NCBI RefSeq assembly: GCF_900113955.1
Contig: NZ_FORH01000001.1
Span: 426,395-490,394 of the forward strand
From: Celeribacter neptunius
Lineage (GTDB): Bacteria; Pseudomonadota; Alphaproteobacteria; Rhodobacterales; Rhodobacteraceae
DNA length: 64,000 nucleotides
Direction of reading: 5' to 3'
The notes under the pieces were generated by a model. The model saw only the letters and a program-made list of their open reading frames with translations, did no database searches and had not been told where the DNA came from. Positions 8,571 to 64,000 of this stretch are shown here, one piece after another (the first letter of the stretch is position 1; each line of letters starts with the position of its first letter). Made by a program: the position numbers and the translations under genes.

Positions 8571-9542
8571 ATGTTTGGACTTATTCTTCTCGGGCTGGTT
8601 GCGCCGACACTGGTCGGACTGGCGATTTACGACGCCTTCGATGACGATGACAGCACGCATGACGAGGAGCGGTCGGAGCAGGCGGGGCAGGCGGCGGAGG
8701 CTGAGCCTGGCTCTGATGCACTCGCTGATGCGCCGGTGCCCGATGATGCCGATCCTGCCGAGATTGCGACAGCCGAGGGGGAAACGCTGTTGTTTGATGG
8801 CTCGGAGGTGCTGACCGGCAGCGAGGGAGACGACAGTCTGGCCGCGGGGCAGGAGGGTGCTCTGGCCCCGTCGGAGATCCATCTTCTGGGGGGCGATGAT
8901 GAGGCGGAGCTCGATCTGCCCTATGATATCACCCTCTACGGCGGCGCGGGCAATGACACCCTGACCGGCACCATTGGCAACACGCTTGATGGCGGCGAGG
9001 GCGATGACACCCTGGTCGGGATCGATGCCACCAATCTTTATGGCGGCGCGGGCAATGATGACATCACCTGGAACAGCGATACCGAACTCAACGACATGAC
9101 CGCCCGCATCGATGGTGGCGCGGGCGATGACCGGATCGAGATCCGCGCCGAAGCCGGAACCGATCAGCCGGATCGCGGTGGCGCCTCTGTCACCGGCGGC
9201 GAGGGGAGCGACGATTTCGAGGTTGTGCTGGAATTGCAAAACAGCGAACTGGCCTTGGAAGCGGATGATCATCTCGAAAGCCGGATCGCCACGATCGGCG
9301 ATTTCGACCCGGCGCAAGATCGGCTCAGCATCGAGATCGAACGCGGACCCGGGACCGAGGATCGGGATACCTCCGTCGAGATGGCGCAGGAAGAGACCGA
9401 AGCGGGCGGTTATGTCACCACGCTCACGCTGAGCTATGCCGAGACGGAGGAAGCGCTCGCCGCGACCAGTGTCCTGACGATCTACAGCGATACGCCTTTT
9501 GGCCTCGGAGACATCGAATTCACCGGGCTCGCAACGGTTTGA
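8571..9542 (+). CDS. RTX-like calcium-binding repeat protein with N-terminal membrane anchor
   Basis: A 323-residue very acidic protein. Residues 1-21 form one hydrophobic segment without an obvious cleavage site, followed by an Asp/Glu-rich linker. Between about residues 90 and 225 there are GGxGxDxL-type nonapeptides (GGAGNDTLTG, GGEGDDTLVG, GGAGNDDIT, GGAGDDRIE, GGEGSDDFE) that form calcium-binding beta-rolls in RTX proteins. The C-terminal ~90 residues hold the IGDFDPAQDRLSIE segment common in Rhodobacteraceae RTX proteins. No catalytic domain is visible. The SD is GGGGTGAG and the gene is monocistronic. Confidence 0.78.
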   Translation: MFGLILLGLVAPTLVGLAIYDAFDDDDSTHDEERSEQAGQAAEAEPGSDALADAPVPDDADPAEIATAEGETLLFDGSEVLTGSEGDDSLAAGQEGALAPSEIHLLGGDDEAELDLPYDITLYGGAGNDTLTGTIGNTLDGGEGDDTLVGIDATNLYGGAGNDDITWNSDTELNDMTARIDGGAGDDRIEIRAEAGTDQPDRGGASVTGGEGSDDFEVVLELQNSELALEADDHLESRIATIGDFDPAQDRLSIEIERGPGTEDRDTSVEMAQEETEAGGYVTTLTLSYAETEEALAATSVLTIYSDTPFGLGDIEFTGLATV

Positions 9543-9663
9543 ACCCTTGCCGGATGCCGCGGTTTTCAAGGCGGAGCGGATGTTTTTGAAAGACTTTTTG
9601 ACTCTCGCGTGGCCCTGTCCAAGGATATCCCGGGCATGATGCGGCGAAGCTTCGGAGGGGCGA

Positions 9664-61379: not shown

Positions 61380-61785
61380 CATAGCTGTCGTTCATGCCGG
61401 GGAGTGAACCGGTCCCAGTTTTTGGACCGGTTGGCAGCGTTTCCAAGGTGTATCCGGGTTAGGTTTTCTTCGTTGTCCTTCGGGGCATGCTGCCATTTTT
61501 TGATCACGGCCCTGCCAATATGCCTCCCTCGGTGTTCGATGCTCAAGGGAAGATTGGGGCGTTCGGTGTTGCAGAAGGTCATCCATCTGCTGATCACCCA
61601 CCGCGTGTGGAAACCATCTGTGATTTCCTCGAGATAGAGGGCATCCTGTTTCAAGGAACGCCACTCGACCATTGTCCATCGGACCGATGGCGACCTCATG
61701 CCGAGCTGTTGCTGCGCCGCCAACTCAAGACCTTGCGGGTTGCCCAATCCATGGTCGCGACCAGATAGAGGAAGTGCGTCTGGTC
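61380..61785 (-). mobile_element. IS3-family transposase remnant
   Basis: Three minus-strand frames give pieces of an IS3-family DDE transposase. At 61696-61785: FLYLVATMDWATRKVLSWR, then a stop. Next, in a second frame: EWRSLKQDALYLEEITDGF...WVISRWMTFCNTERPNLPLS. In a third frame: SSLEHRTPREAYWQGRDQKMAA. These are the integrase-core start and the conserved C-terminus; the part between the D-x-DD-E residues has been deleted. No intact terminal repeats were found. Confidence 0.8.
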
Positions 61786-62359
61786 ATATCGACAAGATAT
61801 TGCGCCGCGCGGCCACGGCGACGGCCTCGGACATCGTGAGCGCCGAGAGCTTGCGTCTTAGATTGCGACAATGCAGATCGACCGTGGGCAGCGAAATATT
61901 AAGCTGGTGGCCGATCCGGTCGCGTCGCAGTCCCGCAGCGGCCAGCTCCAGAACGGCGCGTTCGCGTGCGGTGAGGGAGGGGATCTGTTCGCTGACAAAG
62001 GTCGCATCGGGATTGTGCCAAAACACCACAATGCGCACCCGCTCAGGCTGAAATGGCAGGACATTGATCTGCACGGGCCCGTTCGAAGCGGGCACCTCGG
62101 GCAAGAGGACCGTCGAGTCGGGAGCAACCTGGCGGCTTGCGATCCAGAGCGCCGCATCGAACGCTGCGGCGGGGTCAATGTGGAGCCGCTCTGCCTCATC
62201 GCGACGGCAATAGCGCGGATGGAGTTCAAGAAACCGCCGCGCCATCGCATCACAGGAAAGAATCCGCGCCTCGAGATCGACATCGAGACAGGCTGTCGCG
62301 GTCGTCTCGGGCGAAAGAGCGACCTCATCCGGCGCGGGCAATGTCATGGTCCGTGTCAT
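61784..62359 (-). CDS. LuxR-type HTH transcriptional regulator
   Basis: A 191-residue regulator. The C-terminal ~60 residues are a LuxR/GerE HTH: LTARERAVLELAAAGLRRDRIGHQLNISLPTVDLHCRNLRRKLSAL. The N-terminal ~125 residues are not an autoinducer-binding domain and look PAS-like at best (ACLDVDLEARILSCDAMARRFLELHP). Its stop abuts the IS3 remnant, so the true C-terminus may have been altered by the insertion. Divergent from the LuxR/hydrolase fusion gene. Confidence 0.82.
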   Translation of the reverse strand: MTRTMTLPAPDEVALSPETTATACLDVDLEARILSCDAMARRFLELHPRYCRRDEAERLHIDPAAAFDAALWIASRQVAPDSTVLLPEVPASNGPVQINVLPFQPERVRIVVFWHNPDATFVSEQIPSLTARERAVLELAAAGLRRDRIGHQLNISLPTVDLHCRNLRRKLSALTMSEAVAVAARRNILSI

Positions 62360-62437: not shown

Positions 62438-62455
62438 CCCCCCTCAAGGGGGGTA
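62438..62455. promoter_or_regulatory. Hairpin in the divergent regulator spacer
   Basis: CCCCCC-TCAA-GGGGGG, a 6-bp stem with a tetraloop, in the 201-bp spacer between the two regulator genes. AAGCTT occurs twice downstream (about 62470 and 62515). A regulatory role is possible but unsupported otherwise. Confidence 0.3.
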
Positions 62456-62560: not shown

Positions 62561-64000
62561 ATGATGCGACAGCCCAAGAAGCAACCACGACCGGAGCCCA
62601 TGGCGCGCCCCTCGCAATTCATTCAAATCCTCGCGACCGCGCTCAAGAAAGCGCCTGTCGCGCTCCCCTCGGAAGACGCGCTCCTGCTCAGTCCGAGAAA
62701 CGAGGCCCAGAGCGAACGCTTTTTCTTTCGGCATTTCGCCCAATGTCGCCTGTCGATCAATCTCTATGACTCTGCTGGCACACGGCAGATCAACACCTAT
62801 GCCCCCGATAGCGAGATGATCTTTCCCGCGCAGCTCAGGATGGCACGCCAGTCGGTTTCGGGCTGTGCCTTTACCGTCATCGAAGAAAAACTCTTCTTTC
62901 TCTATGACCGTGCCGAACACTGGCCCGACGTCCCTGATCATATCGCCTTTTTCGCGGTGCATCTCGACGGCTCCCATCTCGCGGCACTCTCGGCGGAAGC
63001 CCCGACAATGACGCTCACACCTTCGGAATATGTGCTTCTGGCACATCTTTTGAGCGGCAAGGACTTGCAGGGCGCGGCCGAGGCGACGGGCGCCTCTTAC
63101 GACACCAAACGCAAACAGATCCGCACCGTACTCGACAAGTTCGGAGCCAAAACCCAGACCGCTTTGCTCCGCGCCCTCTCGCTCGACATCACCGCCGCGG
63201 TGCTCGACGAGATTTTGCCGCTGAAGGATCGTCGCCCCGAGACCGCCCAGATCAAGCGCCAGTTCGGCCGCGCCGTGGTCGTGAATCACCTCTCGATCGG
63301 CGAGAGCGATGAAATTCCGATTTGGGAATTCGGCGCACGTCGTGGTCAGCCGGTGCTCTATTTTCACAGTATGCTCTCGCCCGTACTGTTCGACGACGAC
63401 ATGATCCGGCCCCTAAAGGCACAGAATCTGCGCATGTTATTGGTCCCACGGCATTTCCTGAGCTTCACCCGCGAGGCAGAACCAGAGCTCCGCATGGCCC
63501 GCTTTTCCAAGGCGATGGCCGAGATCGTTGACTATATGATCGACGAGCCGGTTCTTTGTCTCGCGGAAAGCGCCGGCGTGCCCTGGGCCGCGCATTTCGT
63601 ACGCCATCATCCGGATCATGTCTCAAAGCTTGTGCTTTGCGGCACCCCGCAGCTGTTCAAGGCCGTGAAGGATAGCGCTTCACCGACCATCTTTGTCGAT
63701 ATGTCGCACCGGCTCCGCTCGGATGCCCGCGTCCTCGTTGGGCTCACACAGGTCTATAACGCGCTGAGCCGCGTGCCCGCCTTTGCGCAAAAGGGGCTTG
63801 GTCACATGTTTCGAAAGTCCGAGGCCGATAGTGCCTGTCTCGATACACTGTTCGAGCGTGCGCATCTGTCCGACTGGTTGCGCTTGATCGCCAATCACGC
63901 GACCCTCGCCTCGATTGACGAGATGATCAGCCTGCAACGTGACTGGCACGCGGATCTTCTAGCCACACGCTGTCCGATGGTCCTGCTCCACGGCCGCGAA
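62561..64000 (+). CDS. LuxR-type HTH / alpha-beta hydrolase fusion protein (3' end outside window)
   Basis: 480 codons are open to the last base, starting at ATG 62561 with AGGAAC just upstream. Residues ~1-150 are a sensor-like region of no recognised family. Residues ~151-210 are a LuxR-type HTH (LTPSEYVLLAHLLSGKDLQGAAEATGASYDTKRKQIRTVLDKFGAK). From ~240 an alpha/beta-hydrolase fold begins, with the nucleophile elbow A-E-S-A-G (Ser about 337) and HPDHVSKLVLCGTP after it. The window ends at MVLLHGRE, where the acid residue is expected next. A DNA-binding regulator carrying its own hydrolase domain is uncommon. Confidence 0.82.
   Translation, partial: MMRQPKKQPRPEPMARPSQFIQILATALKKAPVALPSEDALLLSPRNEAQSERFFFRHFAQCRLSINLYDSAGTRQINTYAPDSEMIFPAQLRMARQSVSGCAFTVIEEKLFFLYDRAEHWPDVPDHIAFFAVHLDGSHLAALSAEAPTMTLTPSEYVLLAHLLSGKDLQGAAEATGASYDTKRKQIRTVLDKFGAKTQTALLRALSLDITAAVLDEILPLKDRRPETAQIKRQFGRAVVVNHLSIGESDEIPIWEFGARRGQPVLYFHSMLSPVLFDDDMIRPLKAQNLRMLLVPRHFLSFTREAEPELRMARFSKAMAEIVDYMIDEPVLCLAESAGVPWAAHFVRHHPDHVSKLVLCGTPQLFKAVKDSASPTIFVDMSHRLRSDARVLVGLTQVYNALSRVPAFAQKGLGHMFRKSEADSACLDTLFERAHLSDWLRLIANHATLASIDEMISLQRDWHADLLATRCPMVLLHGRE

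Follow-up and report, generated by a model that had tools for sequence, protein, structure and literature searches.

A LuxR-type helix-turn-helix fused to an alpha/beta-hydrolase fold in Celeribacter neptunius: a putative ligand-pocket regulator beside a Slam-lipoprotein locus

Receptors with the fold of an alpha/beta-hydrolase are famous in plant hormone perception, where D14, KAI2 and GID1 include members with an intact catalytic triad and members in which the triad is degenerate. The bacterial family described here, typified by the Celeribacter neptunius protein P0001, can be likened to these receptors, as they are generally known, in that intact and lost triads occur within one family; it differs in carrying a DNA-binding domain in the same chain, and we claim no orthology. 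With the LuxR solos, one-component regulators of the LuxR/GerE type, the system shares a GerE-fold helix-turn-helix (HTH) and, in the second of two palindromes discussed below, a lux-box layout. Unlike those regulators, P0001 has a centrally placed HTH followed by a hydrolase fold, no Autoind_bind domain was found in it, and a different palindrome occupies the spacer ahead of its gene. The core fold and triad are common to P0001 and to feruloyl esterase 7dq9, aryl esterases, PHB depolymerase and PcaD-like enol-lactonases, whereas sequence identity to the hydrolases in our Foldseek list is 12-20%. A Rhodobacteraceae type XI secretion locus (Slam, DUF560; PMC12282271) resembles the present one in pairing a Slam-family protein with an adjoining lipoprotein; as given in the main text of that paper, its locus includes thymidylate synthase, lactoylglutathione lyase and DUF1194, and the terms LuxR, hydrolase and regulator are absent from that main text. 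Among the matches listed by a literature search there was neither an HTH-hydrolase architecture nor a LuxR-linked Slam locus, which does not imply absence from print; PMC2447327, considered as a close precedent, was set aside because "hydrolase" appears there in one reference only and "LuxR" is absent from its main text. The parts are of known kinds; what is new is the way they are combined, together with a triad that survives in one clade and a pair of candidate private operators.

The gene lies at the edge of a 64-kb window (G000:C5:426395-490394), the whole stretch of DNA that was analyzed, in the C. neptunius genome (G000; 4.4 Mb, 18 contigs). Its reading frame opens on the forward strand at window position 62561, fills the window to 64000 and continues to G000:C5:490577 with no stop, bearing out the original prediction of a single uninterrupted frame; the product, P0001, has 540 residues. 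Two start codons are candidates, ATG 62561 (with AGGA upstream) and ATG 62600, and the latter may be the true one because several orthologues can begin there. A sensor-like N-terminal domain is followed by a LuxR/GerE HTH and then by an alpha/beta-hydrolase fold, and the preservation of this architecture by 20 aligned relatives, at 28-89% identity, excludes a chance origin. Among the named relatives found, one from Pseudooceanicola marinus is the closest (88% identity), and near-full-length orthologues occur in 9 of the 20 genus genomes, our own included, the other eight at 49-59% identity; one further genus genome, G012, holds a broken remnant of the gene. The structure model used throughout has a mean pLDDT of 83.6 and was computed from a 37-row alignment, superseding a first model at pLDDT 67 built on a shallower alignment. 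In it, the N-terminal region forms a mixed domain at about residues 44-137 (62690..62971, + strand) that is PAS-like by eye and may serve as a sensor. A Pfam search gave no match within the N-terminal region of P0001; PAS_4 was matched weakly by 2 of 37 family members.

The middle region, which the original prediction had called a LuxR/GerE HTH, is indeed one: alignment, model and profile searches place it at residues 149-216 (63005..63208, + strand). Four helices are modeled (154-164, 169-176, 180-194 and 199-218), mostly at pLDDT 92-97 and about 96, and the recognition-helix motif YDTKRKQ is invariant across all 21 aligned rows. A profile built from the HTH segments of the 37 family members matched the solved domains of DesR (1.7e-7), GerE (1fse; 1.9e-7), RcsB (3.8e-7), NarL (4.3e-5) and TraR (1e-4), so that P0001 combines the four-helix fold with similarity to solved members by which the LuxR/GerE HTH family is recognized. 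The top match of this profile, a designed repeat protein, was judged spurious, as was another repeat chain. P0001 on its own gave no Pfam GerE match at E ≤ 1; GerE was matched by 10 of 37 family members at E ≤ 0.01. Autoind_bind had no Pfam match at E ≤ 1 in P0001, in its paralogue P0002 or in the neighboring regulator P0003, and the domain that marks LuxR-type acyl-homoserine-lactone receptors is thus absent from all three at that threshold.

From about residue 239 onward the chain adopts an alpha/beta-hydrolase fold, which the window covers to residue 480 (63275..64000, + strand). The predicted hydrolase fold with its AESAG elbow was upheld by Pfam (Abhydrolase_1, 3.8e-11), by the model and by Foldseek, whose 50 listed matches are all, by name, alpha/beta-hydrolases or designed cages built on one (best target-normalized TM-score among them 0.82, 9wlv). 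The nucleophile elbow is modeled in the classical strand-elbow-helix form (strand 331-336, helix 337-349) with Ser337 (63569..63571, + strand), placed by alignment and model, as its nucleophile. The triad Asp and His, which the original prediction had left to the sequence past 64 kb, are both there: D481 (in HGREDP), the first residue beyond the window end, and H509 (in NAGHL). Core fold and Ser-Asp-His, the latter by sequence, accordingly identify P0001 as an alpha/beta-hydrolase family member. D481 and H509 are found in all 21 aligned rows and S337 in 19; the two rows without S337 are Martelella orthologues with Asn instead. The best NCBIfam matches of P0001 were PcaD models, far under their cut-offs (best 38.9 versus 390 bits), and an identity as 3-oxoadipate enol-lactonase PcaD was rejected at 32.7 bits against a curated cut-off of 255.85.

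A complete triad in a normal elbow, with Asp and His invariant in 21/21 rows, would also be expected if the hydrolase were a plain enzyme that degrades a metabolite, with the HTH merely providing autoregulation and sensing left to the N-terminal domain, which is conserved among the aligned orthologues and well modeled at residues 100-140. The wider family makes us doubt this. Among 394 genomes of the family Rhodobacteraceae, 40 held a match to P0001 at E ≤ 1e-10, and 38 of these matches span both HTH and hydrolase, the two hydrolase-only cases being G012 and G041; outside this family but within the class, a match at E ≤ 1e-20 was obtained in 23 of 289 genomes, hydrolase-only matches included. 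In a hydrolase-domain tree that included 69 fusions, Ser, Asp and His were complete in 26 and incomplete in 43, and the division followed descent: the triad was complete in 22 of the 24 fusions in the clade that includes the window gene (the window clade), versus 4 of the 45 fusions sampled outside it. The remaining 41 have lost at least one triad residue while retaining the fold and the HTH, which would be hard to understand if the fusions had catalysis as their common purpose, and the Ser to Asn replacement in the two Martelella orthologues likewise speaks against a plain enzyme; we hold that reading to be rather unlikely. In the commonest loss among fusions His is replaced by Gln, Asp being usually retained, and all 34 rows of one branch (support 89, not starred) have an incomplete triad. 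As few as 4 changes of triad state suffice on the tree, and the 41 losses are therefore not independent. Hydrolase-only rows from the same class-wide search had a complete triad in 10 of 10 cases.

These counts cover matches with extracted loci, and since the tree was a quick build with long branches and many weak forks, its counts and large groups alone were used. Dropped beforehand were L005 (a duplicate of P0001), L051 (no HTH), L177 and L180 (unalignable), L085 and L088 (from the genomes of L034 and L033), L092 (in two pieces), L014/L025 (a remnant), L161 and L184 (duplicates), L182, L183 and L189 (partial matches), and the hydrolase-only genus matches L019-L021, L023, L027-L029 and L031. 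Two family members, L042 and L164, were reported within unusually long reading frames, of 1362 and 965 residues, that perhaps reflect further domain fusions.

The C. neptunius genome itself contains both states: the paralogue P0002 (G000:C9; L004:4979-6763) shares the architecture of P0001, but its triad is degenerate, with Gly in place of the Ser and Arg in place of the His. Relatives of this kind, together with the precedent of plant GID1, would suit a view of P0001 as a pure receptor that keeps the triad geometry for binding and achieves no useful turnover. Against this stands the conservation of all three residues in 22/24 members of the window clade, and we think a pure receptor rather unlikely. 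A simple reading of the sequences is that catalysis became less necessary once the fold was fused to a DNA-binding domain, whereas the fold itself was still needed, the pocket having perhaps been put to use in sensing. Given the loss of triad residues in 41/45 fusions outside the clade and their retention in 22/24 within it, the hydrolase domain of P0001 is most likely a ligand pocket that in the window clade is still enzyme-like.

We compared gene neighborhoods at 21 distinct loci from Rhodobacteraceae in which the fusion gene is intact (L003, which is the query and is counted, L060-L067, L069-L072, L080-L084, L086, L087 and L091). The gene that diverges from the fusion gene in the window (61784..62359, - strand) encodes P0003, a 191-residue regulator whose predicted LuxR-type HTH was confirmed by Pfam (GerE, 9.2e-13). 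A P0003-type gene adjoins the fusion gene divergently at 17 of the 21 loci, all except L070, L084, L086 and L087, and the two-regulator module that had been proposed from the window thus recurs across the Rhodobacteraceae. Profiles of the P0001-family and P0003-family HTH segments matched one another with a probability of 93% (E 3.8e-7), whereas comparison of the whole-family profiles was weak (probability 4%). By eye, the divergent frame that takes the place of P0003 encodes an exported protein in L084, an adhesin-like protein in L086 and L087 and an autotransporter in the Martelella locus L089.

On the other side of the fusion gene, just beyond the window, a Slam gene (C5:490574-491830), convergent with the fusion gene, is followed by a lipoprotein gene (C5:491918-492487), and this arrangement is found in 14 of the 21 loci. 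It was not found near the fusion gene in L067, L070, L071, L081, L084, L086 and L087, the last of which has hardly any downstream sequence covered, which limits its count. The Slam protein matches SlipAM/DUF560 (PF04575) at 1.3e-12, above the cut-off, as expected of an outer-membrane component of type XI secretion. The lipoprotein beside it is conserved and has a lipobox-like Cys by eye. TbpB_B_D was matched weakly in 2 of 12 lipoprotein family members (best E 0.018); the C. neptunius lipoprotein had no Pfam match and can be given no firm family, and a search of solved structures found no relative of it at E ≤ 1. In one genome, G018, about 0.69 Mb separates the lipoprotein-Slam pair (at 2.25 Mb) from the regulators (at 2.94 Mb). 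At L068 (G012; 8807-9663) the fusion gene has decayed and the spacer is lost, while the genes for the partner regulator, Slam and lipoprotein persist. As part of this conserved set of four genes, the fusion regulator may control surface display of a protein.

The spacer between the two regulator genes contains the palindrome CCCCCCTCAAGGGGGG (62438..62453, no strand assigned), a candidate operator and the sole exact CCCCCC-N4-GGGGGG in the 4.4-Mb genome (1 match, versus 0 for the reversed control). A single copy with N3 or N4 lies upstream of the fusion gene at 20 of the 21 loci, all except Shimia, and no further copy occurs in the 315 kb that these loci comprise; the preceding base is G in 19/20 and the base before that C in 20/20, while the center varies. 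Within the genus, 8 of the 9 genomes that possess the fusion gene contain the N4 form (the ninth has N3), versus 2 of the 11 that lack the gene (Fisher p 0.0027, a value that ignores relatedness). Across the 394 family genomes, at least one exact copy of C6-N4-G6 occurs in 110, many copies lying inside C and G runs, and two of 30 loci taken from that search adjoin a fusion gene by tblastn, our own and that of G061; the motif is thus diagnostic only in combination with its position. Allowing one mismatch gave 7 sites in C. neptunius versus 8 for the control, and we therefore claim no wider regulon.

The C6 and G6 arms with a 4-base loop do form a stem in the predicted fold, as would an RNA hairpin or terminator. 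Such a function is nevertheless very improbable: there is no terminator-like site at the spacer and no Rfam match, the folding energy of the spacer shows no marked excess (z -1.03), and the arms are unchanged across 20 loci while the loop varies, so that letters rather than pairing look conserved, with the qualification that those 20 loci were chosen by exact arms, the C6 pattern having been searched in all 21.

Which of the two regulators would use the site is a separate matter, and because the spacer is common to both genes at the 17 loci that have them, position alone cannot assign it. An operator of P0003, or of both regulators, rather than of P0001 would fit this shared spacer, and would fit the Shimia locus, where a fusion gene is present with neither P0003 nor the palindrome beside it. 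Neither there nor at four Martelella-type loci does a C6 palindrome precede the fusion gene, although YDTKRKQ is present at all four aligned loci among these five, which counts against P0001 as the protein that uses the site. Conversely, L084, L086 and L087 retain the C6 site even though no P0003-type neighbor of the fusion gene was detected there (for L086, within 1 kb upstream), and the second palindrome, found beside other small LuxR-HTH genes (L155, L156 and L160), suits P0003-type proteins better; we hold assignment of the C6 site to P0003 to be rather unlikely. L068 was not counted as an independent loss of the palindrome along with a decayed fusion gene, since the spacer itself is gone. 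Two Martelella loci have one such C6-type palindrome, CCCCCCATTTGGGGGG, downstream of the fusion gene at a distance of about 5 kb (L089:12424 and L090:12791); in L089 it lies upstream of what is, by eye, a LacI-like regulator.

The classical lux box is ACCTGT-N8-ACAGGT. A lux-box-like palindrome, ACCTAT-N8-ATAGGT, is located in the lipoprotein promoter, and its sole exact copy in the C. neptunius genome (C5:492574-492593) lies 86 bases ahead of the lipoprotein start codon. It is exact in 10 of 14 lipoprotein promoters; three others have 2 or 3 mismatches, 3-mismatch matches being common by chance, and L082 has none within 3. In a stricter form it is present in 9/9 genus genomes with the fusion gene versus 2/11 without, and in those two it precedes a different exported protein. 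With up to 2 mismatches the C. neptunius genome has 50 sites versus 29 for the control. In G018, where the locus is split, the C6 palindrome is found at the regulators and the lux-box-like one at the lipoprotein gene. In G011 (L155), G012 (L156) and G009 (L160), the second palindrome precedes a gene for a 102-107-residue protein, exported by eye, that diverges from a 128-140-residue LuxR-HTH-like gene with no adjoining fusion gene; this placement fits P0003-type HTHs better. The lux-box-like site before the lipoprotein gene of L068 (G012) has one mismatch. Judged by sequence, the two palindromes look like candidate private operators.

Taken together, a model emerges in which P0001 would be a one-component regulator with a hydrolase pocket that acts in a cascade with P0003 upon a surface lipoprotein; as a joint explanation it is the best we have, and we consider its chances about even. 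A small ester or lactone would be bound by the C-terminal alpha/beta-hydrolase domain and would control the HTH of the same chain. P0001 would act at CCCCCC-N4-GGGGGG in the divergent spacer, thereby controlling itself and P0003, and P0003 in turn would act at ACCTAT-N8-ATAGGT ahead of the lipoprotein-Slam genes, the output being surface display of the lipoprotein. With its complete triad, P0001 of the window clade may still turn the ester or lactone over, and if the triad is live, the receptor would use up its own ligand and the signal would thereby end itself.

The original prediction of a sensor or self-limiting enzyme fits the complete triad, the triad loss outside the clade and the conserved palindrome in the very spacer it had named; its interpretation was plausible but incomplete, having missed the Slam exporter and lipoprotein beyond the window (14/21 loci). 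Its remark that no LuxI-type synthase was in view is true of the window and does not extend to the genome, which has three Autoind_synth matches over the Pfam cut-off (G000:C13:68155, C13:425524 and C5:646270). Given these three LuxI-type matches, an acyl-homoserine lactone is a possible ligand of P0001; the presence of Slam and lipoprotein in 14/21 loci makes surface display a likelier output of the module than classical quorum sensing.

A bolder and more speculative proposal, which we put forward tentatively, is that the family constitutes a class of bacterial transcription factors with the pocket of hydrolase-fold hormone receptors, most of them dead sensors, with the window clade self-erasing and gating a Slam lipoprotein through a two-step cascade. 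If true, the ligand of such a self-erasing receptor would be an ester or a lactone, perhaps an acyl-homoserine lactone, and each step of its cascade would have one private operator. Because both triad states occur in one family, with the read-out built into the chain and with candidate operators found only once in the genome, the change from enzyme to receptor is amenable to simple reporter tests. The P0001 family thereby bears on how a sensor evolves from an enzyme, and its locus may provide the circuit that controls a Slam-type surface lipoprotein in marine Rhodobacteraceae.
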